Positions 26,546 through 43,613 of a stretch of 64,000 nucleotides of DNA are shown piece by piece. The stretch comes from Nitrospirota bacterium (GTDB lineage Bacteria; Nitrospirota; Thermodesulfovibrionia; Thermodesulfovibrionales; Dissulfurispiraceae): positions 62,001 through 126,000 of the forward strand of contig WSNO01000011.1 of NCBI GenBank assembly GCA_009773415.1, in the 5' to 3' direction. The position numbers and the translations under genes are program-made. The notes under the pieces were generated by a model, which saw only the letters and a list, made by a program, of their open reading frames with translations, made no database searches and was not told the origin of the DNA. Numbering within the stretch: position 1 is the first letter of the stretch; each line of letters opens with the position of its first letter.

Positions 26546-26596
26546 GAAAAGTTTCTCGATTCGCTATCTCGAAATGGAACTTGGGGAGAAGGCACC

Positions 26597-27292
26597 ATGG
26601 AGAACGCTGCTGACAGTAAAGGGTTGACGACAATCCCGGAACCAACGCTCCGGCGTCTGCCGATATATTATCAGTATCTGAGGAATCTCGAAAGCGCCGG
26701 CAAAAAAGTCATTTCCTGTACGACCATAGGAAATGATTTGAGTCTGGACCCCACGCAGGTGCGGAAGGACCTTGCGCACACCGGCGTTGAAGGGAAGCCC
26801 AAGGTCGGGTATATGGTTTCCGATCTTGTCCGAAAGATAGAAGAATTCCTCGGCTGGAACAAGATCAACGCCGCATTTCTTGCCGGAGCGGGCAACCTCG
26901 GCTCGGCGCTTCTCGGCTATCCCCAGTTCAGGGAGCATGGCCTGTCCATTGTGGCTGCGTTTGACCGTGACCCGGCCAAGGTCGGATCCCTCATTCACGG
27001 CAAGCGTGTGCTTCCGCTGGAAACACTGCCGGGGCTTGCCCGGCGAATGGGCATCCGGCTCGGCATTATAACCGTTCCTCCCGCAGCGGCACAGGAAGTT
27101 GCCGATTTCATGGTGCAGGGCGGTATTCAGGCAATCTGGAATTTTGCGCCCGTTATGCTCAAAGTTCCTTCCTCTATTGTTGTACGCAACGAGGAGCTTT
27201 ATTACTCTCTGGCAGCGCTTTCCCATACGCTCGCCAAAAAACTGAATGTTGAGATAAAGAAAGGAGAAGAGGGTTATGCAAGCAGCAACTGA
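26597..27292 (+). CDS. rex: Redox-sensing transcriptional repressor Rex
   Basis: Rex represses fermentative and hydrogenase genes and lets go when NADH binds. The start is the ATG at 26597 (GGGGAGAAGG 5-14 bases upstream); an open frame extends further upstream without features. The 231-residue product has an N-terminal winged helix (IPEPTLRRLPIYYQYL, then IGNDLSLDPTQVRKDL, the DNA-recognition region), the NAD-binding GAGNLGSALLGY, AAFDRDPAKVG, and a C-terminal domain-swap helix (YYSLAALSHTL). Its end overlaps hydC by 17 bases, placing the regulator in the operon it presumably controls. Confidence 0.93.
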   Translation: MENAADSKGLTTIPEPTLRRLPIYYQYLRNLESAGKKVISCTTIGNDLSLDPTQVRKDLAHTGVEGKPKVGYMVSDLVRKIEEFLGWNKINAAFLAGAGNLGSALLGYPQFREHGLSIVAAFDRDPAKVGSLIHGKRVLPLETLPGLARRMGIRLGIITVPPAAAQEVADFMVQGGIQAIWNFAPVMLKVPSSIVVRNEELYYSLAALSHTLAKKLNVEIKKGEEGYASSN

Positions 27293-27782
27293 AACGCACG
27301 CTACACCTGCTGAAAAGTTTGCAAACGTATGCTCGATTCTGGAAAAGCACGGCCGCCATCCGGCCCGGCTTATCCCGATTCTTCAGGCTGTGCAGGAGGA
27401 GTACGGATATCTTCCTGAGGAGGTGCTGGCGTACGTTGGTGTGGCGCTGGATGTTCCGGCAGCGCGGGTGTACGGCGTTGCAACATTTTACGCCCATTTT
27501 GCGCTGGAGCCCCGGGGCAAATATATTGTTCGGCTGTGCAACGGAACGGCATGCCATGTTAAAAAATCGATTCCTATTCTGGATGCGCTCTACCGCGCGC
27601 TCGGCGTTACCGAAAAGAAGCCGAAGCATGAGCTGATTACGATAGAAATTGTCGCCTGTCTCGGCGCCTGCGGCCTTGCGCCGGTTCTGGTTATTAACGA
27701 AGACGTCTACGGCCAGATGACGCCGGCTCGTGCAGCGAAACTGATTGACGAAATTCTTGAGAAGGAGGCTGCCCTGGTATGA
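27276..27782 (+). CDS. hydC: NAD-linked [FeFe]-hydrogenase gamma subunit (NuoE-like, HydC)
   Basis: The thioredoxin-like [2Fe-2S] subunit of the trimeric, probably electron-bifurcating hydrogenase. 168 residues: helical N-terminal domain (LIPILQAVQEEYGYLPEEVL), VYGVATFYAHF, then the cluster ligands CNGTACH (Cys-x4-Cys) and ACLGACGLAP (Cys-x3-Cys), the standard NuoE/HndA set. The start lies within the end of rex (AAAGGAG upstream), and the stop overlaps the hydB start (ATGA). It mediates electron transfer with the flavin subunit. Confidence 0.92.
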   Translation: MQAATETHATPAEKFANVCSILEKHGRHPARLIPILQAVQEEYGYLPEEVLAYVGVALDVPAARVYGVATFYAHFALEPRGKYIVRLCNGTACHVKKSIPILDALYRALGVTEKKPKHELITIEIVACLGACGLAPVLVINEDVYGQMTPARAAKLIDEILEKEAALV

Positions 27783-29665
27783 GCAAGGCCACCGCAGCAA
27801 CAAAAAAAGGCGACGGAGCCGCCCCGGCAGTTGCGGGCAAGCGGCGCGTCATAATCTGTGCCGGCACGGGGTGCGTTTCCACCGGCGCCCTGAAAGTATA
27901 TGATGCCTTCATGCGCGAATTGAAGAAAAGGGCTCTCAACTTTGATGTCATTCTCAAGCCGGAAAGCGAGAATCTGCATCTTTCCAAGAGCGGCTGCCAG
28001 GGCTTCTGCCAGATGGGGCCTTTGGTAACAATCGTTCCCGACGACATTTTCTACACGAAAGTTAGTGCTGATGATGTGGAAGAGATTGTGGAGAAGACCC
28101 TGCTGAAGGGCGAGGTCGTTGAGTGGCTCCTCTATAATGACCCCGGTACAAAGCAGTTCTGCAGGGGAACCCAGGATATCCCGTTTTACCAGCGCCAGAT
28201 GCGCTATGTCCTAAAGGAATGCGGCCTGATTGACCCGGAAGACCTGAATGAATATATCTCTCACAAGGGCTATGAAGCCGCTAAAAAAGCGTTTCTCTCG
28301 ATGACCCCTGAAGCCGTCTGCAACGAAATCACGGCGTCCGGCCTTCGCGGTCGCGGCGGCGGCGGTTTCCCGACCGGACGCAAGTGGGACGCTGCCCGCA
28401 TTCAGCCGGCCGCGAAAAAATATGTCATCTGCAACGGCGACGAAGGCGACCCGGGCGCATTCATGGACAGAAGCGTTATGGAAGGCAACCCGCATTCCGT
28501 AATCGAAGGAGTCATGATCGCAGCCCGCGCAATCGGCGCTGACGAAGCATATATGTACGTCCGCGCTGAGTACCCGCTGGCGGTAAAGCGCATGTACAAG
28601 GCGGTTGCGGACGCGGAAGCGGCAGGAATCCTCGGTCACAACGCCTTTGAGAGCGGCATGAAAATGAAGTGCATTGTCATGGAAGGCGCCGGAGCATTCG
28701 TCTGCGGCGAAGAGACGGCGCTCATCGCCTCTATCGAAGGCATGCGCGGGATGCCGGTGCCGAAGCCCCCGTTTCCGGCGCAGAGCGGATTGTGGGGCAA
28801 GCCGACGGTTATCAACAACGTAGAGACTCTTGCGCAGGTGCCCCGCATTCTCCTTGATGGCGCGGAGGAATACCGGAAAATCGGCACAGCGACATCGCCG
28901 GGAACAAAGACGTTTGCGCTGACCGGTCATGTGGTGAACACCGGCCTCATCGAGGTGCCGTTCGGCACGACGCTGGGAGAGATCGTCCTGAACATCGGCG
29001 GCGGCGTTACCGATGATCAGGGCAAAAAGACGAAGGACATCTTCAAGGCTGTCCAGATAGGCGGCCCGTCGGGCGGCTGTCTTACCCCCGAGATGCTTGA
29101 TCTGCCGCTCGATTTCGATTCGCTTCGCACTGTCGGCGCGATGGTCGGCTCAGGCGGGCTTGTCGTCATGAATCAGAAAACCTGCATGGTGAGTGTCGCG
29201 CGCTTCTTCATGGAGTTCACCCAGCGCGAGTCCTGCGGCAAGTGCGTTCTCTGCCGCGAAGGAACCAGGCAGCTTCTGTCGCTGCTGGATGACGTCATTG
29301 AGGGACGCGCCACGCCGGCAACCCTTTCGCTGATGGAGCAGCTCGGCAGAGCCGTGCAGAAGGGTTCTCTCTGCGGACTCGGCAAGACGGCGCCGAACCC
29401 GGTTCTCTCGACGCTCAAATATTTCCGGCATGAGTATGAGTCTCATGTGAATGATAAACACTGTTTGACCGGCCGGTGCAAGGTGCTGGCAAAACCGCTG
29501 ATTAATGCGGTGAAGTGCAAGGGCTGTGCGATGTGCGTTACCGTCTGTCCGGTCGGCGCCATTACGGGCGCCAAGAAACTGCCGCACAAGCTGAATCAGG
29601 AAGCCTGCATCAAGTGCGGAGCATGCACGGCTAAGTGCAAGTTCAATGCGATTGAGGGGATTTAA
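27779..29665 (+). CDS. hydB: NAD-linked [FeFe]-hydrogenase beta subunit (NuoF-like flavoprotein, HydB)
   Basis: This subunit carries FMN, binds NAD(H) and exchanges electrons with ferredoxin. 628 residues: N-terminal thioredoxin-like [2Fe-2S] domain (about 20-125: CAGTGC, CQGFCQMGP), NuoF core with SGLRGRGGGGFPTGRKW (NADH loop) and CNGDEGDPGAFMDR (FMN site), SLBB-like region, the [4Fe-4S] site ESCGKCVLCREG, and two C-terminal [4Fe-4S] ferredoxin motifs (CKGCAMCVTVCP, CIKCGACTAKC). This is the arrangement of HydB/HndC of bifurcating HydABC complexes. It overlaps hydC by 4 bases; hydA follows after 3 bases. Confidence 0.93.
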   Translation: MSKATAATKKGDGAAPAVAGKRRVIICAGTGCVSTGALKVYDAFMRELKKRALNFDVILKPESENLHLSKSGCQGFCQMGPLVTIVPDDIFYTKVSADDVEEIVEKTLLKGEVVEWLLYNDPGTKQFCRGTQDIPFYQRQMRYVLKECGLIDPEDLNEYISHKGYEAAKKAFLSMTPEAVCNEITASGLRGRGGGGFPTGRKWDAARIQPAAKKYVICNGDEGDPGAFMDRSVMEGNPHSVIEGVMIAARAIGADEAYMYVRAEYPLAVKRMYKAVADAEAAGILGHNAFESGMKMKCIVMEGAGAFVCGEETALIASIEGMRGMPVPKPPFPAQSGLWGKPTVINNVETLAQVPRILLDGAEEYRKIGTATSPGTKTFALTGHVVNTGLIEVPFGTTLGEIVLNIGGGVTDDQGKKTKDIFKAVQIGGPSGGCLTPEMLDLPLDFDSLRTVGAMVGSGGLVVMNQKTCMVSVARFFMEFTQRESCGKCVLCREGTRQLLSLLDDVIEGRATPATLSLMEQLGRAVQKGSLCGLGKTAPNPVLSTLKYFRHEYESHVNDKHCLTGRCKVLAKPLINAVKCKGCAMCVTVCPVGAITGAKKLPHKLNQEACIKCGACTAKCKFNAIEGI

Positions 29666-29668
29666 ACA

Positions 29669-31738
29669 ATGACCAAGAAACCTGTTGAGAACACTGTTTC
29701 CATAAACGGCCGCCCGGTTGCGATTGAGGGCGAGCGCAATCTGCTCGAGATTATCCGCAAGGCGGGAATTGACCTGCCGACGTTCTGCTATCATTCCGAC
29801 CTGAGCGTATACGGCGCCTGCCGGCTCTGTCTGGTTGAGATTGAAGGGCGCGGCATTGTCGGTTCCTGCTCCACTCCTCCTGAGCCGGGAATGAAAATTA
29901 AGACGCACACTGAGGAAATCCGTGAAATCCGCAAGATTTCGGTCGAACTACTTCTGGCCAACCACGACAATAACTGTCCGACCTGCTACAAGAGCAACAA
30001 CTGCCAGCTCCAGAGAATCGCGCGGCAGCTCGGTGTCGAAAGCATCAGGTTCGGGCAGGTGCTCGACCGGAAGCCGGTTGACACTTCATCCCCCTCGGTT
30101 ACCCGCGACCCGAACAAATGTGTGCTCTGCGGAGATTGCGTTCGCGTCTGCTCGGAAATCCAGGAGGTCGGAGCGATCGACTTCGCGCATCGCGGACATC
30201 AGGCCTCTGTGTTGCCGGCATTCGGCAAGGATCTGGGGGAGGTCGAATGCGTCAACTGCGGACAGTGTACGGTCGTCTGCCCGACCGGAGCGCTTACCCC
30301 GCGGTCGGAAATGGAAGAGGTCTGGAAAGATCTCATGAACCCGGATCTGTGCGTGGTAGTCTGTGTAGCCCCTGCGGTTCGTGTCGGCCTCGGCGAGTCG
30401 TTCGAAATGGACCCCGGAACCATCACGACCGGGCAGATGGCCGCATCGCTCAAGATGCTCGGGTTCGATCAGGTCTATGACACTTCATTTGCCGCCGACC
30501 TGACGATTTTTGAAGAGGGAAGTGAATTCCTGCAGCGCAAGGCGAAAGGGGAGAAGCTTCCGCAGTTCACCTCATGCTGTCCCGGATGGGTCAAGTTTAC
30601 TGAGCAGTATTATCCGGAGCTGCTTGAGAAACTGTCGACCTGCAAATCCCCCCAGCAGATGTTCGGGGCCCTGCTGAAGGACAGGCTTCCGGAGATGCTC
30701 GGCATTGCAAAAGAGAAAATCCGCATTGTCTCGGTCATGCCCTGCACGGCGAAGAAGTATGAAGCGAAGCGGCCCGAGTTCATTCACGACGGAATCGCCG
30801 ATGTCGATCACGTCATTACAACGCAGGAGCTTGCGCGTATGATCAAGGCGGCCGGCATTCTCTTCAGCGATCTCACCCCCGAGTCGTTCGACATGCCGTT
30901 TGGTTTTGCGACCGGCGCGGGCGTACTTTTCGGCAACTCCGGCGGCGTTACCGAAGCGGTGCTCCGTTTTGCTGCGGAAAAGGTGACCGGAAAGCAGCTT
31001 CAGTCGTTTGAATTCAAGCAGGTACGGGGCGAGTCCGGCCTGCGGGAGGCCGCGATAACCATTGATGGAGTCCAGCTGAAGCTGGCAGTTGTTTCAGGAC
31101 TGAAAAACGCCAAAACTGTAGCCGAACAGGTACGCAAGGGCACCTGCGAGTACGATATCGTCGAGGTCATGGCCTGCCCGCAGGGATGCATCGGCGGGGC
31201 CGGACAGCCGGTAAGCCGCAATCCGCACGCAAAGAAAATGCGTACAAAGGGCATTTACGATGCCGATAAGATGATGCCGCTCCACAAGTCGCAGGAAAAT
31301 ATTTTTGTTGCGGACTGTTATGCAAAGTTCCTTGGCGATGTCGGGGGAGACAAGGCGCATCATCTTCTGCATACGCACTACCAGAGCCGGCGGAGGCTGC
31401 CCGATGAGGGCATAGCGTTTTTCAGCGGCAACGGGGGGCAGCGCCTGAAAGTCGATGTCTGCCTCGGCACGAACTGCTTTATCAAGGGTGCGCAGGATGT
31501 TCTGAACGGTCTTCTCGGTCATGCCGAGGAACACAAGTATGAAAACATGGTCGACATCCGGGCATCGTTCTGCTTTGAGCAGTGCGAGGAAGGCCCGACG
31601 GTTAAGATCGGCGCGGTGACGCTGAATCATGCCACGGTCGACACAGCAGTGCAGGCGCTGAGCCGAGAGCTTGAGCATCAGCTTTCCGGTGAATCAGCGG
31701 CAAAAGACGAATGCACGAGCTGCTCAGGCTGCAAGTAG
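29669..31738 (+). CDS. hydA: [FeFe]-hydrogenase catalytic alpha subunit (HydA)
   Basis: This subunit forms or oxidises H2 at the H-cluster. 689 residues: plant-type [2Fe-2S] domain (Cys 40, 51, 54, 67), His-ligated [4Fe-4S] (HDNNCPTC, about 99-112), two [4Fe-4S] (CVLCGDCVRVC; CVNCGQCTVVC), then the H domain with L1 TSCCPGW (301-307), L2 MPCTAKKYE (357-365) and L3 EVMACPQGCIGGAGQP (499-514). All four H-cluster Cys and the proton-relay Cys 303 are present. After the H domain comes a thioredoxin-like [2Fe-2S] domain (about 593-675: CLGTNC, CFEQC) and a CTSCSGC end, giving the long M3-type form. GAGGGG precedes the ATG. Confidence 0.96.
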   Translation: MTKKPVENTVSINGRPVAIEGERNLLEIIRKAGIDLPTFCYHSDLSVYGACRLCLVEIEGRGIVGSCSTPPEPGMKIKTHTEEIREIRKISVELLLANHDNNCPTCYKSNNCQLQRIARQLGVESIRFGQVLDRKPVDTSSPSVTRDPNKCVLCGDCVRVCSEIQEVGAIDFAHRGHQASVLPAFGKDLGEVECVNCGQCTVVCPTGALTPRSEMEEVWKDLMNPDLCVVVCVAPAVRVGLGESFEMDPGTITTGQMAASLKMLGFDQVYDTSFAADLTIFEEGSEFLQRKAKGEKLPQFTSCCPGWVKFTEQYYPELLEKLSTCKSPQQMFGALLKDRLPEMLGIAKEKIRIVSVMPCTAKKYEAKRPEFIHDGIADVDHVITTQELARMIKAAGILFSDLTPESFDMPFGFATGAGVLFGNSGGVTEAVLRFAAEKVTGKQLQSFEFKQVRGESGLREAAITIDGVQLKLAVVSGLKNAKTVAEQVRKGTCEYDIVEVMACPQGCIGGAGQPVSRNPHAKKMRTKGIYDADKMMPLHKSQENIFVADCYAKFLGDVGGDKAHHLLHTHYQSRRRLPDEGIAFFSGNGGQRLKVDVCLGTNCFIKGAQDVLNGLLGHAEEHKYENMVDIRASFCFEQCEEGPTVKIGAVTLNHATVDTAVQALSRELEHQLSGESAAKDECTSCSGCK

Positions 31739-31864: not shown

Positions 31865-33280
31865 ATGACGACGCACCTGGAAGACAGAAAAACACAGGAA
31901 GCAACAGCATCGTGGCTTGACGAAGCGAATATTCGCGCATGTCTTGCGGCGGCAGAGCCTTGCGCGGAGCAGGCCGCCGGGATTCTGCAAAAGGCGGAAG
32001 GCATGCAGGGGCTGACGGCTGATGATGTCTCGGTTCTGATGAATCTGGAAGATCCCGGGTTGCTGCAAGCGCTCTTCAGGACAGCTGAGAAGGTTAAGGA
32101 GCAGATCTACGGTCCGCGCATCGTTCTGTTTGCGCCGCTCTACGTTTCCAATCGCTGTGTGAATGAATGCGCGTATTGCGCGTTCCGGGCCGGCAACCCT
32201 ATTGAGAGACATTCCCTCACACGCGCGCAGGTTGTCCGTGAGGCCGAGGAGCTTGTCAGGCAGGGCCACAAGCGCGTGCTGCTGGTTGCCGGCGAGGACC
32301 CATCTGCCGAAGGATTTCAGCATGTGCTCGACTCTATTGCCGCTGTTTATGCCGCACGGGTGTGCAACGGCGAAATTCGCCGCGTCAATGTAAACATCGC
32401 GCCGCTGACGGTTGAGCAGTTCCGCCGCCTGAAGCAGGCCGGCATAGGGACGTACCAGCTCTTCCAGGAGACGTACCATCGGGAAACCTATGAAAAGTAT
32501 CATACCGCCGGGCCGAAAAAAGATTTCCTCTGGCGCGTGACGGCATGTGACCGAGCCATGGAGGCGGGTATCGACGACGTCGGCATCGGGGTGCTGTTCG
32601 GTCTGTACGACTGGAAATTCGAGGTGCTTGCGCTGCTTCAGCATATCCGTCATCTGGAGGAGCGCTTCGGCGTCGGACCTCACACCATCAGCGTTCCCCG
32701 GCTTGAACCGGCCGACGGCTCCGAGTTTGCGGCAGTGCCGCCGCACGCTGTGCCGGATGCCGATTTCAGGAAAATGGTTGCGATACTGCGCCTTGCGGTC
32801 CCATACACAGGAATCATCATGTCAACCCGTGAAAATGCCGAAATGCGGCGTGAGACGCTCCGGCTCGGGGTCTCTCAGATATCGGCCGGAAGCCGCACTG
32901 ATGTCGGAGGCTATGCCGAAGGGTGCGATGAGGCACCCGGACAGTTCGAGCTCGGCGACCACCGTTCACTGGAAGAAGTAGCGCGGGATTTGGCGGCCAT
33001 GGGCTATGTGCCCTCATTCTGCACCGCCTGCTATCGGATGGGCCGAACGGGCATGGACTTCATGGATCTTGCGAAGCCCGGCGACATAAAAACTCACTGC
33101 GATCCGAACGCCTTGTCCACATTTATGGAGTATTTGCTCGATTATGCGGCTCCTGACACACGCGCCGCCGGAATGTTGCTGATCAGGCAGCGTCTTTCAG
33201 CAATGGATCCGCAGACGCGGGCATTTACCGAGGGGCAGATTGCCGAAGTCGAGCACGGCAAGCGCGATGTGTTCGTATAG
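31865..33280 (+). CDS. hydG: [FeFe]-hydrogenase maturase HydG (radical SAM, tyrosine lyase)
   Basis: HydG cleaves tyrosine to give the CO and CN- ligands and builds an Fe(CO)2(CN)-cysteine synthon for the H-cluster. 471 residues, the usual length. The radical SAM cluster is CVNECAYCAFRAGNP near residue 98 (CxxxCxxC; NPIERHSL typical of HydG). The C-terminal auxiliary cluster is CTACYRMGRTG (CxxC, with one further Cys, about 385-395). ThiH is the nearest relative, but the C-terminal motif and the operon identify HydG. The ribosome site is AAAGGA. Confidence 0.95.
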   Translation: MTTHLEDRKTQEATASWLDEANIRACLAAAEPCAEQAAGILQKAEGMQGLTADDVSVLMNLEDPGLLQALFRTAEKVKEQIYGPRIVLFAPLYVSNRCVNECAYCAFRAGNPIERHSLTRAQVVREAEELVRQGHKRVLLVAGEDPSAEGFQHVLDSIAAVYAARVCNGEIRRVNVNIAPLTVEQFRRLKQAGIGTYQLFQETYHRETYEKYHTAGPKKDFLWRVTACDRAMEAGIDDVGIGVLFGLYDWKFEVLALLQHIRHLEERFGVGPHTISVPRLEPADGSEFAAVPPHAVPDADFRKMVAILRLAVPYTGIIMSTRENAEMRRETLRLGVSQISAGSRTDVGGYAEGCDEAPGQFELGDHRSLEEVARDLAAMGYVPSFCTACYRMGRTGMDFMDLAKPGDIKTHCDPNALSTFMEYLLDYAAPDTRAAGMLLIRQRLSAMDPQTRAFTEGQIAEVEHGKRDVFV

Positions 33281-33371: not shown

Positions 33372-34796
33372 ATGGCAGGCGACGCACTGAGAACGGAACA
33401 TGACCTATTAGGATATAAAGAGCTTCCGGCCCACCTCCTTTATGGGATCCATACCCTGCGGGCCCTGGATAACTTCCCCTTATCCGGGCGCCCGCTTCCG
33501 GAAGGAATGGTCCGGGCTTTCGGCATGGTGAAGTGGGCTTGTGCCGCAACGAATCTGGATCTGGGCGTCTGGAAAGAAAATTCCGGCAAGGCTGCGGCGG
33601 TTCTTGATGCCTGCCGAGAGATGGCGGAAGGCAAGCTCACGAAGTACGTGGTGGTCGATGCGCTTCAGGGCGGGGCCGGCACCAGCACGAACATGAATGT
33701 CAATGAAGTGATCGCGAACCGGGCGCTTGAACTGCTCAGCCTGCCGCCCGGCCGCTATGACGTTGTGTCTCCGACAGACGATATCAATCTCCACCAGTCT
33801 ACCAATGACACGTATCCGACCGCGCTCAGGCTGGCCGCCATCTGGGCTCTCCGCCGCCTTGAAGACGAGGTGGTAAGGCTGCAGGAAGCATTTCAGGACG
33901 CTGAAAAGCGATTTGCCCATGTTGTGAAGATTGGCCGCACCGAGATGCAGGACGCAGTGCTGATCACGCTCGGCCGGGAAATGGGGGCATATGCGGAGGC
34001 ATTCAGCCGCGACCGCTGGCGGCTCTTCAAGTGCGAAGAGCGTCTCCGCGTGGTGAATCTGGGAGGCACGGCAATCGGCACCGGTCTGACCGCGCCGCGC
34101 CGGTATGTTTTCCGCGTGACTGACAAGCTCAGAGATATTACCGGCATCGGCTTTGCCCGCGCAGAAAACCTTGTCGAAGCGACACAGAATGCTGATGTTT
34201 TTGCGGAAGTCATGGGAATGGTGAAGGCGCTGGCGGTTTCCCTGCACAAAGTATGCGGCGATCTTCGCCTTCTTTCATCAGGCCCCGACGCCGGTCTCGG
34301 TGAGATTCGCCTGCCTGCGCGCCAGGCGGGATCTTCCGTCATGCCGGCAAAGGTGAACCCGGTCATCCCCGAAGCGGTCAGCCAGTCGGCAATGCTGGTG
34401 TTCGGCTATGACGCAAGCCTCACGTTTGCCTGCTCATCCGGCAGCCTTGAGCTGAACCCGTTCATGCCGCTCATAGCGCATTGCCTGCTCGACAGCCTGT
34501 CGCTCATGGAGCGGAGCTGCCGCATCTTGCGCGAATTGTGCATTGACGGCATCGAGGCCGACGAAGAGCACTGCAGAAAACAGCTTGAGCGCTCGACAGC
34601 CGTCGCAACCGCGCTGATTCCGCACGTCGGCTATGAGAAGGTGTGTGATGTGCTGCGACAAGCGGAAACTGAGGGGAAATCCATACGGCAGACAGTCGTG
34701 GAACGGGGCCTGCTGACCGAAGCAGCATTTGACCGCGCGATAAGTCCTGAGGCAGTATGCAAATTGGGGCACGACAAAAGGTGGCTGGAAAAATGA
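33372..34796 (+). CDS. aspA: Aspartate ammonia-lyase (AspA) within the hydrogenase maturation operon
   Basis: Aspartase/fumarase superfamily, 474 residues, catalysing aspartate to fumarate plus ammonia. Seen: YGIHTLRALDNFPLSG near the start, STNMNVNEVIANRA, SPTDDINLHQSTNDTYPTA (substrate-binding block of aspartases), and the catalytic Ser loop GSSVMPAKVNPVIPE. Aspartase rather than fumarase is suggested by STNMNVNEVI and the HQSTNDTYPTA form. It sits between hydG and hydF with gaps of 91 and 73 bases and its own AAAGGAG. The same placement is known in other [FeFe] gene sets; a role in supplying ammonia for the bridging amine of the H-cluster is possible but is inference. Confidence 0.88.
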   Translation: MAGDALRTEHDLLGYKELPAHLLYGIHTLRALDNFPLSGRPLPEGMVRAFGMVKWACAATNLDLGVWKENSGKAAAVLDACREMAEGKLTKYVVVDALQGGAGTSTNMNVNEVIANRALELLSLPPGRYDVVSPTDDINLHQSTNDTYPTALRLAAIWALRRLEDEVVRLQEAFQDAEKRFAHVVKIGRTEMQDAVLITLGREMGAYAEAFSRDRWRLFKCEERLRVVNLGGTAIGTGLTAPRRYVFRVTDKLRDITGIGFARAENLVEATQNADVFAEVMGMVKALAVSLHKVCGDLRLLSSGPDAGLGEIRLPARQAGSSVMPAKVNPVIPEAVSQSAMLVFGYDASLTFACSSGSLELNPFMPLIAHCLLDSLSLMERSCRILRELCIDGIEADEEHCRKQLERSTAVATALIPHVGYEKVCDVLRQAETEGKSIRQTVVERGLLTEAAFDRAISPEAVCKLGHDKRWLEK

Positions 34797-34869: not shown

Positions 34870-36096
34870 ATGCAGCCGACGTCAAAAGGAATGCGGACTC
34901 AGATCGGGCTTTTCGGCCGCCGTAATGTCGGCAAGTCGAGCCTGCTGAATGCTTTGACGCGGCAGGAGGTCTCGATAGTATCCGACGTTGCCGGAACGAC
35001 GACCGACCCGGTTGAAAAACCGATGGAGCTTTTGCCGCTCGGACCGGTTCTTTTTATCGACACCGCGGGAGTTGACGATATCGGTGCGCTTGGCGCGCTG
35101 CGCATTGCAAAGACGCGGCAGGTATTTGACCGCGCCGACCTTGCCGTGCTGGTGACGGAAGCCGGAACCTGGGGCGACTTCGAAGAAATGCTTGTGAATG
35201 AGTTGTCGCATAGAGGAACCCCTGTCGTTACTGTTGTGAACAAGGCGGATCTGTTCGACGGAGATGACCCGCGCCTGGCACTCCCCGAAAAGCTGAGGAG
35301 TCACGCCGTTGTTGTGTCGGCAGCAACGCGGTCAGGTCTTGATGCGCTTCGGGAATCGCTGCTGGCGAGCGTTCCCCCGGAGTGCCTGCGGCCGCCTATG
35401 ATTGCCGGGGATCTCGTCGGTCCGGGTGATCTTGCGCTCCTTGTCGTTCCGATCGACAAGGAGGCGCCGAAGGGCCGCCTTATTCTTCCGCAGGTGCAGA
35501 CGATTCGCGATCTGCTCGACAGCGATGCCTGTTGCATGGTGGTGAAGGAGCGGGAACTGCGCGCCGCGCTGGATCGGCTGAAGACACCGCCGAAGCTTGT
35601 GATCACCGACTCGCAGGCATTCCTGAAGGTTGCGGCGGATGTGCCCGGGGAGATTCCGCTGACGAGCTTCTCGATCCTTTTTTCGCGCTACAAGGGGGAT
35701 CTCATCAGGCAGGTCGAAGGCGCCACCGCGATCGATTCGCTCAAGCCCGGAGACAAGGTGCTTATTGCGGAGGCATGTTCGCATCATCCTATCGGAGAAG
35801 ATATCGGACGGGTCAAAATACCGCGCTGGCTGACGCAGTATGTCGGCGGCTCGCTTGAGTTCGTGCATTATCAGGGACATGACTTCCCGGATGATCTGCC
35901 GTCGTATAAGCTTGTGATTCACTGCGGAGCCTGCACCATGAACCGCCGTGAAATGCAGACCCGCATTCGCAGATGCGCGGAGGCAGGGGTGCCGGTTACG
36001 AACTATGGGCTGGTTATTGCTTACAGCCTCGGCATTTTTGAACGCGCGCTCGGGCCGTTCCCTGCGGCGCTGGAAGCATATAGGGGCAAACAGTGA
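34870..36096 (+). CDS. hydF: [FeFe]-hydrogenase maturation GTPase HydF
   Basis: HydF is the scaffold on which the diiron subcluster is completed before transfer to HydA. 408 residues: N-terminal Era-like GTPase with P-loop GRRNVGKSSLLNAL, AGTTTDPVEKPMEL, DTAGVDD and NKAD; a dimerisation domain; and a C-terminal cluster domain with EACSHHPIGEDIGRVKIP and HCGACTMNRREM, supplying the three conserved Cys and nearby His for the [4Fe-4S] site. The stop is overlapped by hydE (GTGA). GGAGG sits 5 bases before the ATG. Confidence 0.95.
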   Translation: MQPTSKGMRTQIGLFGRRNVGKSSLLNALTRQEVSIVSDVAGTTTDPVEKPMELLPLGPVLFIDTAGVDDIGALGALRIAKTRQVFDRADLAVLVTEAGTWGDFEEMLVNELSHRGTPVVTVVNKADLFDGDDPRLALPEKLRSHAVVVSAATRSGLDALRESLLASVPPECLRPPMIAGDLVGPGDLALLVVPIDKEAPKGRLILPQVQTIRDLLDSDACCMVVKERELRAALDRLKTPPKLVITDSQAFLKVAADVPGEIPLTSFSILFSRYKGDLIRQVEGATAIDSLKPGDKVLIAEACSHHPIGEDIGRVKIPRWLTQYVGGSLEFVHYQGHDFPDDLPSYKLVIHCGACTMNRREMQTRIRRCAEAGVPVTNYGLVIAYSLGIFERALGPFPAALEAYRGKQ

Positions 36097-37193
36097 GAAG
36101 CAGTAGGGATCTGTTCAGCTTGATGAGCCGTGAAGAAGTGCGAAAATGGCTGCATGAGAACGATCCGCTGCGGCTTGCCGAGTTGTATTCTCAGGCTGAC
36201 ACCGTGCGGAAAAACTACGTCGGAGACGAAATACACCTGCGCGGCCTCGTTGAAATATCGAACCATTGCCTCCAGAATTGCGCGTATTGCGGGCTGAGGC
36301 GGGACAATGTCGTTGTTGAACGGTATCGCATGAGCGACAGCGAGATCCTGGAGTGCGCTTACGCCGCGGTGAGCCGCGGCTACGGGACGATTGTGCTACA
36401 GTCCGGGGAGGACTATGGCCTGGAACCTGACCGGATCTCATGTCTGGTCAGCCGGATAAAGGAAGAAACCCCCCTGGCGGTGACGCTGAGCCTTGGGGAG
36501 CGCTTTCCCGAGGAGCTTGCTTCCTGGCGCGAAGCAGGTGCAGACCGCTATCTCCTGAAGTTTGAGACGTCTGACGATGAGCTGTATGAGAGGATTCACC
36601 CGGCACTGCCGAACAGGGTATACTCAAGGAAGGGGCTGCTCCGCGTCATCAAGGACCTCGGATACGAGGTCGGCAGCGGAATCATGATCGGCCTGCCGGG
36701 TCAGAGCTATGACGCGCTGATAAATGATTTGTTTCTGTTTTGCGAGATGGGGCTGGACATGATTGGAGCAGGCCCTTTTCTGCCGCATCCGGAAACCCCG
36801 CTCGGACAGGACGCGACGTATGCACGTCTGCCGGAGGGAGAGCAGGTCCCGGGTACTGAGGAGATGGCATATAAAGTTATAGCCCTGACGCGCATACTCT
36901 GCCCGGACGCAAACATACCGGGCACGACCGCTCTCGCATCGCTCAATCGTGAAGAGGGTCGCAAGCTGGCCCTGCAGCGCGGAGCAAATGTAGTCATGCC
37001 GAATCTGACGCCGGGAACCTACCGGCGCTGTTATGAGATTTATCCTGAGAAGCTCTGCTTTCATGAAGATGCTGAATGGGAACATGCACAACTTATGCAG
37101 ATGCTTGCCGATCTTGGACGTCCCCCGGGGAAGGGATCCGGAGGACGTCGCGGAGGATCCTGCACGTGTGCGGCCAAGGAGATGCTTTTATGA
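36093..37193 (+). CDS. hydE: [FeFe]-hydrogenase maturase HydE (radical SAM)
   Basis: HydE acts on the HydG-derived Fe synthon to make the diiron precursor. 366 residues from a GTG start inside the hydF stop codon. The radical SAM motif CLQNCAYCGLR is near residue 60 (CxxxCxxC), followed by VLQSGEDYG, a HydE hallmark, and a TIM-barrel with GSGIMIGLPGQ and GPFLPHPETPLG. The radical SAM loop and GEDYG-type block separate it from biotin synthase relatives. All three hyd maturases are present here, unlike in genomes where they are scattered. Confidence 0.94.
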   Translation: MRSSRDLFSLMSREEVRKWLHENDPLRLAELYSQADTVRKNYVGDEIHLRGLVEISNHCLQNCAYCGLRRDNVVVERYRMSDSEILECAYAAVSRGYGTIVLQSGEDYGLEPDRISCLVSRIKEETPLAVTLSLGERFPEELASWREAGADRYLLKFETSDDELYERIHPALPNRVYSRKGLLRVIKDLGYEVGSGIMIGLPGQSYDALINDLFLFCEMGLDMIGAGPFLPHPETPLGQDATYARLPEGEQVPGTEEMAYKVIALTRILCPDANIPGTTALASLNREEGRKLALQRGANVVMPNLTPGTYRRCYEIYPEKLCFHEDAEWEHAQLMQMLADLGRPPGKGSGGRRGGSCTCAAKEMLL

Positions 37194-37516
37194 GCGAAGA
37201 TGCCGACAAAAAAGTGAAAAAAGTTGCGATATCTATGTGTATGGGGAGTTCTTGCTACCCGCGCGGCAACGATCAGAACATGGGGCTTATACGGCACTAT
37301 CTCAAGGTGCATAACCTAGAGGCCTGCATTGAGCTGAAGGGCCATCGCTGCCAGGACAACTGCCATCTCGGGCCGAATATTATTTTTAACGACAAGCCGT
37401 ATCATCAGGTGAATCCGGGCATGTTTCCCGCAACGCTTCGGGAGCTTCTTCCGTACCTTGAACAAGCGTGCCGCGAGTCCTCATCGGGCAAGGACGATGC
37501 AGATCCTGCATCATGA
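37190..37516 (+). CDS. Thioredoxin-like [2Fe-2S] ferredoxin of the sensory hydrogenase module
   Basis: The chosen start, ATG at 37190, sits inside the hydE stop (ATGA) with AAGGAG 9 bases upstream; a longer frame exists but is out of place. The 108-residue product has two Cys pairs of the NuoE/Aae-Fd1 type: CMGSSC and CQDNCHLGPNI, and no N-terminal helical domain. It probably ferries electrons to or from the sensory hydrogenase encoded next, whose ATG overlaps its stop. A free-standing paralogue of the [2Fe-2S] domains in HydC, HydB and HydA. Confidence 0.85.
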   Translation: MSEDADKKVKKVAISMCMGSSCYPRGNDQNMGLIRHYLKVHNLEACIELKGHRCQDNCHLGPNIIFNDKPYHQVNPGMFPATLRELLPYLEQACRESSSGKDDADPAS

Positions 37517-39282
37517 GCACAGACATGGATAAACCGGCAGTCAGAACGGAGCCTTTCATGGACAAAAGTTATCCTATTTATACAAAAAAGACCGAATGCC
37601 AGGACTGTTACAAGTGCGTCCGGGAGTGTCCTGTCAAGGCCATCAAGATAGAAGACGCATATGCATCCATCATCGACGATCTGTGCATTCTCTGCGGGCA
37701 CTGTGTGGACATCTGTCCGAGCGGCGCGAAGCAGGTTCGCGATGATGTCCCTGCGGCAAAGCGGCTGCTGGCAGAGCGGGAGAAGGTCATTATTTCTCTC
37801 GCCCCTTCGTTTGTCAGTGAGTTTCCGGAGCTGCGTCCGGGGCAACTCATAGCAGCCCTCAGGAAGCTCGGATTCTCCGGAGTTTCAGAGACAGCTATGG
37901 GCGCCGAACAGGTGAGTGCGCATGTTGGCGGCCTGCTGGAACGTTCAAGCGGCGAGGTGTTCATTTCATCAGCCTGTCCGACAGCGGTCGAATACCTTCG
38001 CAAGTTTGAGCCCCGCTATGCACCCTATCTGACGGACTTCCTGTCGCCCCTTCTCGCGCATGCCCTGCTGTTGCGCAAGGAGTTCGGGCCTGAAATCGGC
38101 GTCGTCTTTGTCGGGCCCTGTGTTGCAAAAAAGCTCGAGTCCGATACCCATCCTGAACTGGTTGAGGTGGCGCTGACATTTGAGGATCTTCGCCGATGGC
38201 TTGAAGAAGCGCAGATTGATGTGGAGGCTATCCGTGAAAAGGGCGATGATTTATTCATCCCCCGGAGATCGCGGGAAGGAGCGCTCTATCCGATCGAGGG
38301 TGGAATGATTGCGAGCATTCAGGGGCAGAAGCAGGGCAGGCTGCCGACGCACTTTATCCAGTTTTCAGGCATCCGGCGGTTCAGCAAGGCCCTGAGCGGC
38401 ATTGAAGACCTGCGGCCGAAGGAAAATCTTTTTCTGGAGCTCCTGGCATGCTTCGGAGGATGCGTCAACGGCCCGAAGAGCCAGAGCCGCGTGTCAACCG
38501 TTTGCAAGCATTACAAGATTGCTCATTACGCTGAAGCCGCGGCTGAAGTGTCCGAATCGGAGCTTGATATCACTGAGGTCTATGTCCCCGATCCTGTTGT
38601 CCATGAGGACATTTCCGACGACCGCATCAGAGATGCTTTGCGTCAGATCGGGAAGTTGTCGGAAACGGACGAGTTGAATTGCGGCGGCTGCGGGTATGAC
38701 ACATGCCGCGACTTTGCCCGGGCATTTATCGAGGGGAAAGCGGAGCTGTCGATGTGCGTATCATACATGCGTGTGCTTGCGCAGAAGAAGGCGCATATCC
38801 TGATCCAGAAGATGCCCTCCGCGGTCGTTATCGTTGATCAGAATATTAAGGTGCTTGAGTGCAATCCGGTTTTTGCGAGGCTGTTCGGTTCCGGCGGCGC
38901 TTCCGATCAGAGCCCGAGTCCGCTGCATCTGGAGGGAGAGATGCTCGAGTCGATCATGCCGTTTCACAGGCTCTTCCAGAGCGTTATCAGGAGCGGTGAA
39001 GACCTTATCGAAAAAGATCTGCGCTTCAAGGGGCGCATCTTGCATGCCATGGTTTTTACCATCGAAAAGCATGCTCTGGTCGGCGCTTTGTTTGAGGACA
39101 TTACGAATCCTGCCATGCAGCGGGAGCAGGTCATCAAGCGTGCCCGGCATGTCATCCAGCAGAATCTGACGACGGTGCAGAAGATTGCCTATCTTATCGG
39201 GGAAAACGCTGCCGAGTCGGAGATTATTCTCAACTCCATTGTAGAATCGTTTACTCCTGTTGATGACGAGAGTCTCAGTTGA
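37513..39282 (+). CDS. Sensory-type [FeFe]-hydrogenase with PAS domain (HydS-like)
   Basis: The ATG at 37513 overlaps the upstream stop. 589 residues: two [4Fe-4S] motifs (CQDCYKCVRECP, CILCGHCVDICP), H domain with L1 SACP (Cys 155), L2 GPCVAKKLE (Cys 203) and L3 LACFGGCVNGP (Cys 313, 317), an extra Fe-S motif CGGCGYDTC plus a later Cys (390-415), then a PAS-like domain (about 430-550). All four H-cluster Cys are kept, but the proton-relay Cys of TSCCP is Ala 154 and the Met of MPC is Gly 201. Both changes are known from group-C sensory hydrogenases (HydS), which turn over slowly and act in signalling. It is followed by a phosphatase with a TTGA overlap. Confidence 0.9.
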   Translation: MSTDMDKPAVRTEPFMDKSYPIYTKKTECQDCYKCVRECPVKAIKIEDAYASIIDDLCILCGHCVDICPSGAKQVRDDVPAAKRLLAEREKVIISLAPSFVSEFPELRPGQLIAALRKLGFSGVSETAMGAEQVSAHVGGLLERSSGEVFISSACPTAVEYLRKFEPRYAPYLTDFLSPLLAHALLLRKEFGPEIGVVFVGPCVAKKLESDTHPELVEVALTFEDLRRWLEEAQIDVEAIREKGDDLFIPRRSREGALYPIEGGMIASIQGQKQGRLPTHFIQFSGIRRFSKALSGIEDLRPKENLFLELLACFGGCVNGPKSQSRVSTVCKHYKIAHYAEAAAEVSESELDITEVYVPDPVVHEDISDDRIRDALRQIGKLSETDELNCGGCGYDTCRDFARAFIEGKAELSMCVSYMRVLAQKKAHILIQKMPSAVVIVDQNIKVLECNPVFARLFGSGGASDQSPSPLHLEGEMLESIMPFHRLFQSVIRSGEDLIEKDLRFKGRILHAMVFTIEKHALVGALFEDITNPAMQREQVIKRARHVIQQNLTTVQKIAYLIGENAAESEIILNSIVESFTPVDDESLS

Positions 39283-40463
39283 TCAGCATTCAGCAGAAAA
39301 ATGTCATAGAGGTCGATCATTATCAGACGGCCAAGCGGAAGCAGTTTGTGTCCGGAGATGTTTTCTTGTCGCAGCGGCTCAAGGATGAAGACCGGGTTAT
39401 CTCGGTGCTTGCCGACGGGCTCGGCAGCGGGGTGAAGGCGAGCGTTCTGGCAACGCTTACTGCAACGATGGCGCTTAAATATACTGCAAGCTCCAAGGAT
39501 GTTCGTACCTCTGCTGAAATCATCATGAACACGCTGCCGATTTGCAGCGTGAGGAAGATAAGCTATTCGACGTTCACCGTCGTCGATATCGACTCTGCGG
39601 GGCGGACGCGCATCATAGAGCACGGCAATCCCCCGTTCATTTTTTTGCGGGACGGCGCCGAGGTGACGGTCGAAAAGCAGGAAGTGCTGCTCAAGAAGTG
39701 GAACGACCGCATCATTCTTTTTTCGGAATTCGATGTGCGGCTCGGCGACAGAATAGTCTTTTTTTCAGACGGAGTTTCTCAGGCGGGGATGGGCAGCCCG
39801 GCAACGCCGCTCGGCTGGGGTGACGGAGTCAAGTCCTTCATCGAACGAAGTCTGGGCATCGAAAAGAACATCTCCGCGCACATGCTGGCGCGGCGCATCG
39901 TGCGGCGTGCGGTCCAGATGGACGGTCGCGGGGCGCTTGACGATGTCACCTGCAGTGTCATCTATTTCCGCAAGCCGCGGCAGATGCTGCTGGTTACGGG
40001 CCCGCCGTTTGCGCGGGATCGTGATGCCGACCTGGCGCGCCTGATCGATACCTTCCCCGGGAAGCGGGTTATCAGCGGGGGGACGACCGCAAATATCGTA
40101 GCCCGCCATCTGGACCGTGAAATTGAGACGAACATCGATTTCTGCGCTCCCGGCGTTCCCCCGGGAGCGACCATGGATGGGGCGGATCTCATCACGGAAG
40201 GCACATTGACGTTGAACCGGGTGGCGGGAATGCTGGAGTCCGGCGCTCTCCCGGAAGACGACCCGAAGGATCCGGCATCGGCTCTTTTTTCGATGATGCT
40301 GGACAGCGATATCGTTTATTTTATTGTCGGTACGCGCATCAACGAGGCGCATCAGGATCCGAATATTCCGGTAGAGCTTGATCTGCGGAGAAACATCATC
40401 CGCCGCATTGTTGAGCAGTTGGAGAAACAGCACTGTAAAGAAACCCATGTCAAGTTTATATAA
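39279..40463 (+). CDS. SpoIIE/PP2C-type serine phosphatase with extra C-terminal domain
   Basis: TTG start (39279) inside the stop of the sensory hydrogenase. 394 residues: residues about 1-225 are a SpoIIE/PP2C fold with VLADGLGSGVKAS (metal-binding Asp-Gly), EHGNPPFIF, VFFSDGVSQAG and LDDVTCSVIYF. Residues about 230-394 form a second, conserved-looking domain (ISGGTTANIVAR, DGADLITEGTLTLNRV) that I cannot name. Such phosphatases accompany PAS-containing [FeFe]-hydrogenases in clostridia. The substrate, perhaps an anti-sigma-factor antagonist or a receiver-like protein, is not in the window. This looks like the output arm of the H2/redox sensor. Confidence 0.87.
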   Translation: MISIQQKNVIEVDHYQTAKRKQFVSGDVFLSQRLKDEDRVISVLADGLGSGVKASVLATLTATMALKYTASSKDVRTSAEIIMNTLPICSVRKISYSTFTVVDIDSAGRTRIIEHGNPPFIFLRDGAEVTVEKQEVLLKKWNDRIILFSEFDVRLGDRIVFFSDGVSQAGMGSPATPLGWGDGVKSFIERSLGIEKNISAHMLARRIVRRAVQMDGRGALDDVTCSVIYFRKPRQMLLVTGPPFARDRDADLARLIDTFPGKRVISGGTTANIVARHLDREIETNIDFCAPGVPPGATMDGADLITEGTLTLNRVAGMLESGALPEDDPKDPASALFSMMLDSDIVYFIVGTRINEAHQDPNIPVELDLRRNIIRRIVEQLEKQHCKETHVKFI

Positions 40464-40595
40464 TACATGCGATTGCGTGCATTGTCTGTATCTGCTAAAC
40501 TCTGTCAGTAGTGCTGCTTTCTTTCCTTGTTCTGCTCAAAGCGCTTGGGGTGCTTTGGTTGCAGACTGGTTCGAGCACTTTGCGCAGGGGATACA

Positions 40596-43500
40596 ATGGC
40601 ATTTCACAAAAGAAAAATAGCACTCAGTTTGTCCAAGCCCGCGATCCGAAAAAAGATCATTGACTGCCTGTTCGATTCCGCTTATGACGTTACAGAGTAC
40701 GACAAAGACGAAAGCTCGCAGCCAGACCTTTTTATTCTTGACGCCTCCTCAGCGGGCCGCGTCAGCCGGCAGGTGCTCGCCCTGAAAAAGGCATCGGGCG
40801 TTTTTTTACCCGTGATCGTCGCGCTGGACGCGGATGAGCCCATCGATCCCTGGCTTGCGGATGGATTTGACGACTGCCTGCAGGAGCCGTTTTCCAAAGC
40901 GCAGCTCGAAGTTCGGGCGTCTGTTCTTTTGCGTCTGCGCGCGTGGTCAGAGAAGCTGATCCGCAGAAACGAAACCAAGTATGAAGCTATCTTTGAGGCT
41001 ACCGGCGCGGCCACCCTGCTGGTTGATGAGGATTGCACGATCGTAATGGCGAACAGAACATGCCTGCCGGTTACCGGATACCATCCTGAAGAACTCATCG
41101 GCACAAAGTGGATCAACTATGTTGCGCCTGAGAGCCTTGATGACATGATGAAACACCACAGGGCGCGGCGCGGAGTCGAAGCGATAGCGCCGGATCGCTA
41201 TGAAGCAAAGCTGGTCAACAAGTCAGGCGAGGCGCGTGACACTATTCTCGAGGTGCGGATGGTGTCAGGCACTGCGCAAAGCGTTGTTTCCCTTCTGGAC
41301 GTTACCGAACGCCGGCGGGCGGAGGCTGTCGTCCTAAAAGCTGAGCAGCGCTACCGCGTGCTCTTCGAGCGGGCGCCGGTGATGGCTGTCATCACACGCA
41401 ATGAGGGAGGGGTGCCGCTCATTACCGAGTGCAATGAAATGTTTTTGGACACTTTGGGCTACATGCGGTCGGAGGTGGTTGGCCGGCATTTGGCGGATCT
41501 GTATACGCACGAGTCGCGCCGTGCACTGCTGTCAGGCGGCTATCATCGGGCGATGGACGGCAGCTTCGTGGCAGAAGAGCGGCAACTGGTTGCCCGCGAT
41601 GGGCGTGTCGTAGATGCCCTGGTGCGCGCAGTGCCGGAAACAGACTATCAGGGCAGGATTTCCGGCACGCTGGCTATGTTTGTCGACCTGACGGATTTGC
41701 GTGCCAGCGAAGCCCGGTACAAGGCGCTCTTTGATAACGAGCACACGGTTATGCTCGTCATCGATCCCGAAAGCGCCGCCATCGTGGACGCAAACCAGGC
41801 GGCAACGCTCTTTTACGGATGGAGCCATGAAGAGCTGATGCGCAAGATGCTTTTTGACATCAACACCCTTCCGCCGCCCAAAGTTTTTGACCGACTAGAG
41901 CAGGCGTGCAGCATGAAGCGCCATGAGTTCGAGTTTCAGCACCGGCTGGCGGACGGCAGCGTGCGGGACGTGAATGTTTTCAATGGCCCCATTTGGATTG
42001 GGTCAAAAAAATTCGTGTTGTCTGTAATCCATGACATCTCCTGGCGCAAGCATGCGGAAGCTCAAAACAGACTCCTGTTGCAGGCAATAGCGCAGGCGGG
42101 GGAGGCCGTTATGGTCGCAGACAGGGACGGCATAATCCTCTATGTGAACCCGGCTTTCGAGAAGGTCACGGGCTATGCGAACAATGAAGCGGTTGGCCAG
42201 AACCCGCGTTTTCTCAAAAGCGGAAATCGTGACGATGCGTTTTACCGCGAGATGTGGGCAACCATATCAAGCGGCAAGACCTGGCGGGGCAGGTTTGAAA
42301 ATAAGCGCAAAAACGGCGTGCTTTATACTGAAGATGCGACAATCTCACCCATCTGCGATGACCGCGGAGACGTTGTCAGTTATGTGGCAGTCAAGCGCGA
42401 CATCACAGATATGCTCAGCCTTCAGAATGAGAAGGATCGGCTGGAAGGGCAGCTGCGGCATGCGCAAAAGATGGAAGCTGTCGGCAGGCTTGCCGGGGGG
42501 ATTGCCCATGATTTCAACAATATGCTGCACGTCATTCTCGGATACGGAGAGATTATTCTCCAAAAGCTGCATCAAGAAGACCCCTTGCGGGAAGACATCG
42601 AGGAAATCGTCAAGGCTGGACAACGCTCAGCCGCGCTTACCCGTCAGCTCCTGGCATTCAGCCGGAAGCAGCCACTCCAGCCAGAAGTGCTGGATGCCAA
42701 CGTCCTGCTGAGGAATCTTGAAATGATGCTGCGCCGGCTTATCGGTGAGGACATTGATCTGCAGCTGGTGTCCTCGGCGGAGCCTGCTTATATAAACGCA
42801 GACCCGAGGCAGATTGAGCAGGTCATACTAGACCTGGCGGTCAACTCTCGTGATGCCATGCCTCACGGCGGAACGCTGACCATTGAAACCGCACTTGTGG
42901 AGCTTGACGATCAGTATGCTCAAGCCAATGTGGAATTTGTGCCGGACTGGTATGTAATAATTTCGGTGACCGACACTGGCTGCGGTATGGACAAGGAGAC
43001 GATCGCCAAGATATTCGAGCCGTTTTTTACGACCAAGGAGAAAGGAAAAGGAACCGGCCTCGGGCTTTCCACGGCATTCGGCATTGTGAAGCAGTCCGGG
43101 GGGAACATATTGGTTTACTCGGAGCCCGGAAAAGGAACCACGTTCAAAATATACATTCCCGGCTCGCGCACCGCGCCGGAACTGAAAACGGAGCGGGGCG
43201 ATGAGCATTCGCGCCCAGGCGTCAGCCTGCAGATTCTTCTGGTTGAGGACGAAGACTTGTTGCGGGGCTTGTTCGCCGCTATACTTACGAACTTGGGGCA
43301 TCATGTGGCGGCGGCGGCAGAAGGCGGCGAAGCGCTGCTTCTGGTGAAAGAGAAAGGATTGAAGCCCGACCTCGTCATCACGGACGTCGTCATGCCCGGC
43401 ATGAGCGGTTCAGCTCTGGCAGAGCGTCTTCAAAGATGCATCCCAAGCATTAAGATGTTGTTCATGTCCGGCTATCCGGAAAACAACATCACATGCCGAG

Positions 43501-43613
43501 AAGCACTCGCTTCCAGATCGCACATTCACTTTATTCAGAAACCGTTCGCAATCAAAGATCTTGCCGCAAAAATCGAGCAGGTGATGTGTGCGACTGAAAA
43601 AAACTCTTCGTAA
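40596..43613 (+). CDS. Hybrid histidine kinase with degenerate N-terminal receiver and multiple PAS domains
   Basis: I take the ATG at 40596 (AGGGG 6 bases upstream), giving 1005 residues. Order: receiver-like domain (about 5-115; LFILDA present but acidic pocket reduced), four PAS/PAC units (about 125-240, 250-370, 372-490, 492-610), phosphoacceptor GGIAHDFNN with His 638, ATPase with [10 protein letters not shown], and a C-terminal receiver (ILLVEDED, phospho-Asp in [10 protein letters not shown], Lys in FIQKPF). It is soluble, with no membrane helix. It follows the hydrogenase run after 132 bases, so it may be read through. The shared C-terminal layout with the kinase at 17618-20125 suggests paralogy. 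Confidence 0.9.

Follow-up and report, generated by a model that had tools for sequence, protein, structure and literature searches.

Genes of the hydrogenase run

The window (the whole stretch of 64,000 nucleotides that was analysed) carries on its forward strand a run of genes for a catalytic [FeFe]-hydrogenase (HydABC), the maturases HydE, HydF and HydG, and a second H-cluster protein, HydS (Table 1). The genes surrounding hydS overlap consecutively. hydE and the thioredoxin-like [2Fe-2S] protein gene overlap in ATGA, as do the [2Fe-2S] gene and hydS, and the overlap of hydS with the phosphatase gene is TTGA.

Table 1. Features of the hydrogenase run, with positions in the window.
Feature	Position	Strand	Evidence
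rex (redox-sensing transcriptional repressor), opens the run	26594..27292	+	NCBIfam Rex equivalog, 285.6 bits
hydC, NuoE-like subunit of HydABC	27276..27782	+	Position and sequence; query for homologous hydC
hydB, NuoF-like subunit	27779..29665	+	Position and sequence
hydA, group A catalytic [FeFe]-hydrogenase, TSCCPGW and MPC motifs	29669..31738	+	TIGR02512, 497.5 bits (cut-off 405.95)
hydG, maturase	31865..33280	+	TIGR03955, 536.7 bits
aspA, aspartate ammonia-lyase family	33372..34796	+	NF008909, 620.9 bits
hydF, maturase	34870..36096	+	TIGR03918, 561.1 bits
hydE, maturase	36093..37193	+	TIGR03956, 298.2 bits
Thioredoxin-like [2Fe-2S] protein gene	37190..37516	+	PF01257, 30.8 bits
hydS, sensory [FeFe]-hydrogenase, very probably group C3, 589 aa	37513..39282	+	Translation, Pfam, 80 homologues, AlphaFold2 model
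HydS N-terminal 2x[4Fe-4S] ferredoxin motifs (C29 C32 C35 C39; C58 C61 C64 C68)	37597..37716	+	Pfam Fer4 family
HydS H-cluster domain, residues 90–321	37780..38475	+	PF02906 (Fe_hyd_lg_C), 146.6 bits
Ala154, at the proton-relay Cys299 position	37972..37974	+	Ala in 74/80 homologues
Gly201, at the Met353 position	38113..38115	+	Gly in 78/80 homologues
Tyr259, at the Phe417 position (TmHydS Y223)	38287..38289	+	Tyr in 79/80 homologues
Met265, at the group A Val423 position	38305..38307	+	Met in 80/80 homologues
Leu311, at the Met497 position (TmHydS S267)	38443..38445	+	Leu in 76/80 homologues
HydS C-terminal [4Fe-4S] motif CX2CX4CX16C (C390 C393 C398 C415)	38680..38757	+	PF04060
HydS PAS domain, ~residues 430–530	38800..39102	+	PAS_8; strands and helices of the model
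HydS C-terminal helix, residues 537–580	39121..39252	+	Model secondary structure; conservation
SpoIIE-type protein phosphatase gene	39279..40463	+	PF07228, 48.6 bits; fold match SpoIIE 5mqh
Phosphatase C-terminal domain, 162 residues, conserved	39975..40460	+	21 invariant columns in 38 sequences

Against the model for NADH-dependent A6 enzymes HydA scores 763.3 bits (cut-off 765). The position of aspA between hydG and hydF is an association that is already known, and AspA is able to supply the nitrogen of the bridging ligand of the H-cluster (PMC11736057). A search for the Rex operator TTGTTAA-N4-TTAACAA with up to three mismatches gave no match in the window. Control of the operon by Rex is thus unsupported by this pattern. 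Promoter-like sites were found 14 times (7.6 expected) and terminator-like sites at chance level; both were left out when the limits of the operon were set. In a genome of the same genus, the module is directly followed by a group B hydrogenase encoded on the other strand (L008 11960–13372; G015 contig 38), and hydG lies outside the operon. The HydG at contig 19:2710–4122 of that genome scores 917 bits versus 536.7 bits for HydG of the window. The genome of the window contains no group B hydrogenase.

Neighbouring genes were compared for 80 HydS homologues from 14 phyla, which are the best matches to the query, and the counts given here describe the near family, not all of group C. The [2Fe-2S] gene is located directly upstream of HydS in 73 of these loci and the phosphatase gene directly downstream in 78, and the three genes form a conserved trio. 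A second H-cluster gene with the size and score of group B lies at most 3 kb downstream in at least 37 loci. A Rex gene is present upstream in at least 30, a group A HydA nearby in at least 20 and maturase genes nearby in at least 9; these neighbour counts are minima because many contigs are short. The initial annotation had drawn attention to a catalyst and a sensor that share one HydEFG set in one operon. This is correct and makes a fair system for comparison, but the arrangement is common, and sensor-plus-catalyst operons of groups C and D have been published (PMC8163306). Since the fast enzyme, the sensor, the likely phosphatase and the maturation set are all in one gene run, the two H-cluster proteins can be put through the same maturation and comparison.

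Other arrangements occur as well. Genome G010 has HydS and the phosphatase (L009 648–3558) but no catalytic [FeFe]-hydrogenase, HydF or HydG. The assembly is 97% complete but fragmented; the sensor is either a true orphan or seems to be one because of a gap in the assembly. In Riflebacteria, a second, divergent PAS-bearing HydS is located behind a group B hydrogenase (L046 11052–12824 and L083 13664–15436) and is followed by a second phosphatase-like gene.

Architecture of HydS and residues around the H-cluster

Translation of hydS gives an intact chain of 589 residues with no internal stop. The AlphaFold2 model has a mean pLDDT of 87.5 and is confident apart from both ends and one loop. It has the hydrogenase fold and its top matches in the PDB are [FeFe]-hydrogenases. 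The eight cysteines of the N-terminal ferredoxin motifs are invariant in 56 sequences. As stated in the initial annotation, all four ligands of the H-cluster are retained (Cys155, Cys203, Cys313 and Cys317). The first motif reads FISSACPTAV (residues 150–159), the second VFVGPCVAKK (198–207) and the third LLACFGGCVNG (310–320), with the HydA counterparts FTSCCPGW, VMPCTAKK and VMACPQGCIGG, respectively. Translation and alignment thus confirm SACP and GPC in HydS versus TSCCPGW and MPC in HydA.

The C-terminal [4Fe-4S] motif (PF04060, 44.7 bits, residues 388–416) had been described as an extra cluster in front of the PAS domain. The cluster is present, but it is a family standard: CX2CX4CX16C is found in 80 of 80 relatives and is the published motif of the M2e and M2f subclasses (PMC8163306). 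The PAS domain, also reported before, was recovered with a PAS_8 score of 22.6 bits, which is barely above the cut-off (21.8), and the secondary structure of the model agrees with it. The C-terminal helix is conserved and, as far as the model can be trusted (confidence is low past residue 555), is possibly a signalling helix.

Residue positions around the H-cluster are given in CpI numbering and were derived from an alignment with HydA of the same operon and the 80 homologues. HydA has Cys, Met, Phe, Val and Met at positions 299, 353, 417, 423 and 497. All five are substituted in HydS; the replacements of Phe417 by Tyr, Val423 by Met and Met497 by Leu had not been noted initially. The substitutions are found in 74–80 of the 80 homologues and thus typify the family rather than reflecting chance. 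Met265 is probably equivalent to Glu252 of TamHydS, the group D (M2e) enzyme of Thermoanaerobacter mathranii; this equivalence is based on a published comment, according to which group A enzymes carry Val at the Glu252 position (PMC10407848).

The relay residues E279 and E282 of group A are absent from HydS and the aligned positions are variable in the family. Judged by conservation, Glu262, Glu309 and His183 are candidate positions of a proton route: of 53 sequences, 51 have Asp or Glu at the position of Glu262, and the other two residues are present in all. Together with the near-invariant Ala154, Gly201, Tyr259, Met265 and Leu311, these residues sharpen mutational tests.

Ala299 and Gly353 had been taken as marks of a sensor and as a match to very low activity. 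Both residues are real. Gly353, however, is also present in 38 of the 43 other H-cluster proteins of the homologous loci, which mostly keep Cys299. Four of these proteins were tested by NCBIfam and all are group B monomeric hydrogenases. CpIII also carries Gly at this position (PMC10055695). Because it is common in group B catalytic enzymes and occurs in CpIII, Gly353 is not diagnostic of sensors. The published frequencies for the replacement of Cys299 and Met353 are ~43% Ala and ~51% Gly, respectively (PMC10055695).

The link to low activity is not a simple one, as variants of the group C (M2f) enzyme of Thermotoga maritima, TmHydS, show. A131C is less active than the wild type, G177M hardly differs from it in activity per [2Fe] site and H2 oxidation by Y223F is slightly increased; only S267M has a large effect (PMC10055695). 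Thus, Ala299 and Gly353 alone do not explain low turnover. By analogy, HydS of the window would have a low activity.

Six of the 80 homologues deviate at position 299, five with Cys and one with Ile. The Cys299 carriers are phosphatase-linked relatives from Cloacimonadota (L024, L028, L060 and L070) and Bacteroidota (L072). They offer naturally occurring variants with which the function of this residue can be probed.

Class and distribution of HydS

HydS is almost certainly a sensory [FeFe]-hydrogenase of group C (M2f), in agreement with the initial annotation. The architecture, the CX2CX4CX16C motif and the residue signature support this assignment: HydS has the four Cys ligands, two N-terminal and one C-terminal [4Fe-4S] clusters, the PAS domain and replacements of Cys299 and Met353. 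In the phylogenetic tree the HydS clade is set apart from the group A and group B sequences, with SH-aLRT support from a quick search and long branches at some joins. TmHydS, TamHydS and HfsB are not among the taxa, and the choice of group C over group D is therefore based on the PAS domain and the diagnostic residues. Members of group D (M2e) have no PAS domain, carry Ser or Thr at Met353 and possess a proton relay of the Glu252 type. Group D was rejected because of the PAS domain, Gly353 and Met265 at the inferred Glu252 position.

TmHydS shares with HydS of the window the N-terminal clusters, the C-terminal cluster and the PAS domain as well as Ala at Cys299, Gly at Met353 and Tyr at Phe417 (PMC10055695, PMC8163306). 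At Met497 TmHydS has Ser and HydS has Leu; the comparison with TmHydS was made by published residue positions only. TamHydS shares Ala at Cys299, Leu at Met497 and the CX2CX4CX16C cluster, and its operon likewise includes a group A enzyme. Unlike HydS, it lacks a PAS domain and carries Ser at Met353 and Glu at the position presumably occupied by Met265.

In HydDB, subgroup C3 is phosphatase-linked and C1 is kinase-linked (PMC5037454). The overlapping SpoIIE-type phosphatase gene, with its conserved linkage, therefore places HydS very probably in C3. Subgroup C1 was rejected: HydS contains no kinase domain, and linkage to the kinase gene downstream is not conserved. HydS is a complete and typical representative of a sensor family that is already known, and not a new kind of system.

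HydS was found in only 3 of 396 Nitrospirota genomes, and this rarity suggests that it was probably acquired. Any [FeFe]-hydrogenase domain (E ≤ 1e-15) is present in only 9 of these genomes. The Nitrospiraceae MAG AS27yjCOA_151 belongs to the same genus as the host (HydS identity 83–84%). The closest homologue beyond the phylum (58%) comes from a Spirochaetes MAG. It joins the three Nitrospirota sequences in the tree (SH-aLRT 97), and aspA, hydF and hydE are likewise found around it. Transfer between phyla is the simplest reading; its direction is not proven.

The phosphatase and the proposed signalling route

The overlapping phosphatase gene, a signalling partner beyond the initial annotation, codes for a two-part protein. 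Residues 1–230 match SpoIIE/RsbU-type structures, the best being 5mqh, and the Asp residues are invariant. The C-terminal 162 residues are confidently predicted to form an α/β domain. For this domain, no Pfam family scored over its cut-off and no significant sequence match was found in the PDB; a fold search with the whole protein listed phosphatases only. The domain is present in 3 of the 396 Nitrospirota genomes, exactly the three with HydS, a full co-occurrence within Nitrospirota that rests on very few independent events. It is conceivable, although doubtful, that the domain is an undescribed receiver or effector specific to hydrogenase-sensor modules and that the HydS route differs from the SpoIIE/RsbU anti-sigma switch. 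Of the new leads, this conserved domain is the most useful one, as a candidate contact or output point. No target of the phosphatase was found near the operon. As a possible anti-sigma target, the genome offers a single STAS gene over the cut-off; it is far from the operon, and its neighbour encodes a large ATPase that has a HATPase domain at the C-terminus.

Overall, the observations are probably best explained by a group C3 sensor of H2 (or redox state) that signals through the phosphatase. We infer the reaction with H2, the electron partner, the phosphatase coupling, the target and the direction of control as follows. HydS would be a cytoplasmic sensor of the phosphatase-linked C3 kind, and its H-cluster would be matured by HydEFG and AspA of the same operon. 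The H-cluster would react with H2 and exchange electrons via the N-terminal [4Fe-4S] clusters; the thioredoxin-like [2Fe-2S] protein of the operon may be the partner in this exchange. The Ala/Gly/Tyr/Met/Leu set may tune the H-cluster for sensing over fast turnover. The state of HydS would be passed through the region of the C-terminal [4Fe-4S] cluster, the PAS domain and the helix to the SpoIIE-type phosphatase, a route that appears reasonably likely. The phosphatase would then dephosphorylate some target, and hydrogenase or fermentation genes would be adjusted alongside Rex. Passage via the C-terminal cluster is uncertain, since the redox state of its counterpart in TamHydS is unchanged by H2 (PMC13104023). 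The operon is relevant to the question of how sensors of this type relay their signal.

HydS might instead sense redox poise, i.e. reduced ferredoxin or the [2Fe-2S] protein, with the slow H-cluster serving as an outlet or store of electrons. The two ferredoxin clusters, the conserved [2Fe-2S] partner gene and the Rex gene (an NADH sensor) upstream in 30 of the 80 loci are consistent with this, and HfsB of Thermoanaerobacterium has been described as possibly responsive to redox potential (PMC11837493). However, the ligands of the H-cluster and the maturation genes are kept throughout, which would be costly unless H2 is the input, and TmHydS does react with H2 (PMC10055695). Redox poise as the sole input is therefore regarded as unlikely. 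That HydS is mainly a low-rate catalyst, e.g. an uptake enzyme whose PAS domain controls its own activity, is highly improbable in view of the catalytic HydA in the same operon, the missing E279 and E282 and the conserved phosphatase linkage, even though the H-cluster site is complete, electron-transfer clusters are present and TmHydS both oxidizes and produces H2 (PMC10055695). The loss of residues that are critical in group A enzymes could also point to a decaying duplicate. This can practically be dismissed: the same residues are substituted family-wide, which rules out a degenerate copy, the reading frame is intact and identity to HydS of a same-genus genome is 84%.

A different output has to be considered as well. 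A hybrid histidine kinase (40590–43613 of the window) lies directly after the sensor module. It contains several PAS domains together with HisKA, HATPase and receiver domains and could make this a kinase-linked, C1-like system. Among the 80 relatives, conservation next to HydS is seen for the phosphatase but not for this kinase, and a true kinase-fused relative is built differently; output through the kinase is thus very unlikely. In that relative, from a Lentisphaerae MAG (L016 5562–7697, minus strand), the H-cluster protein is fused to HisKA and HATPase, and it is located near a phosphatase-linked sensor.

The preferred reading, signalling through the phosphatase, also draws on hfsABCD of Thermoanaerobacterium, an operon with a similar layout. 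As in the window, the PAS-bearing [FeFe]-hydrogenase HfsB is followed by a serine phosphatase (HfsC), and a catalytic hydrogenase (HfsD) is present, an arrangement shared by 35 of the relatives; HfsD is a group B enzyme, whereas the window has the group A HydABC with maturases. Deletion of hfsB increases hydrogenase activity, adhE expression and ethanol yield (PMC5707799, PMC11837493). This published phenotype is the best in vivo evidence for a regulatory role of the family. HydS of Ruminococcus albus is also a proposed H2-sensing [FeFe]-hydrogenase with a PAS domain (cited in PMC5707799, PMC11837493), but those papers give a Ser/Thr kinase as its partner. The regulatory [NiFe]-hydrogenase with HoxJ (HoxABCJ) is alike in principle, as it combines a slow hydrogenase with a PAS signalling part. 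Unlike HydS, it belongs to an unrelated protein family and its output is a histidine kinase.
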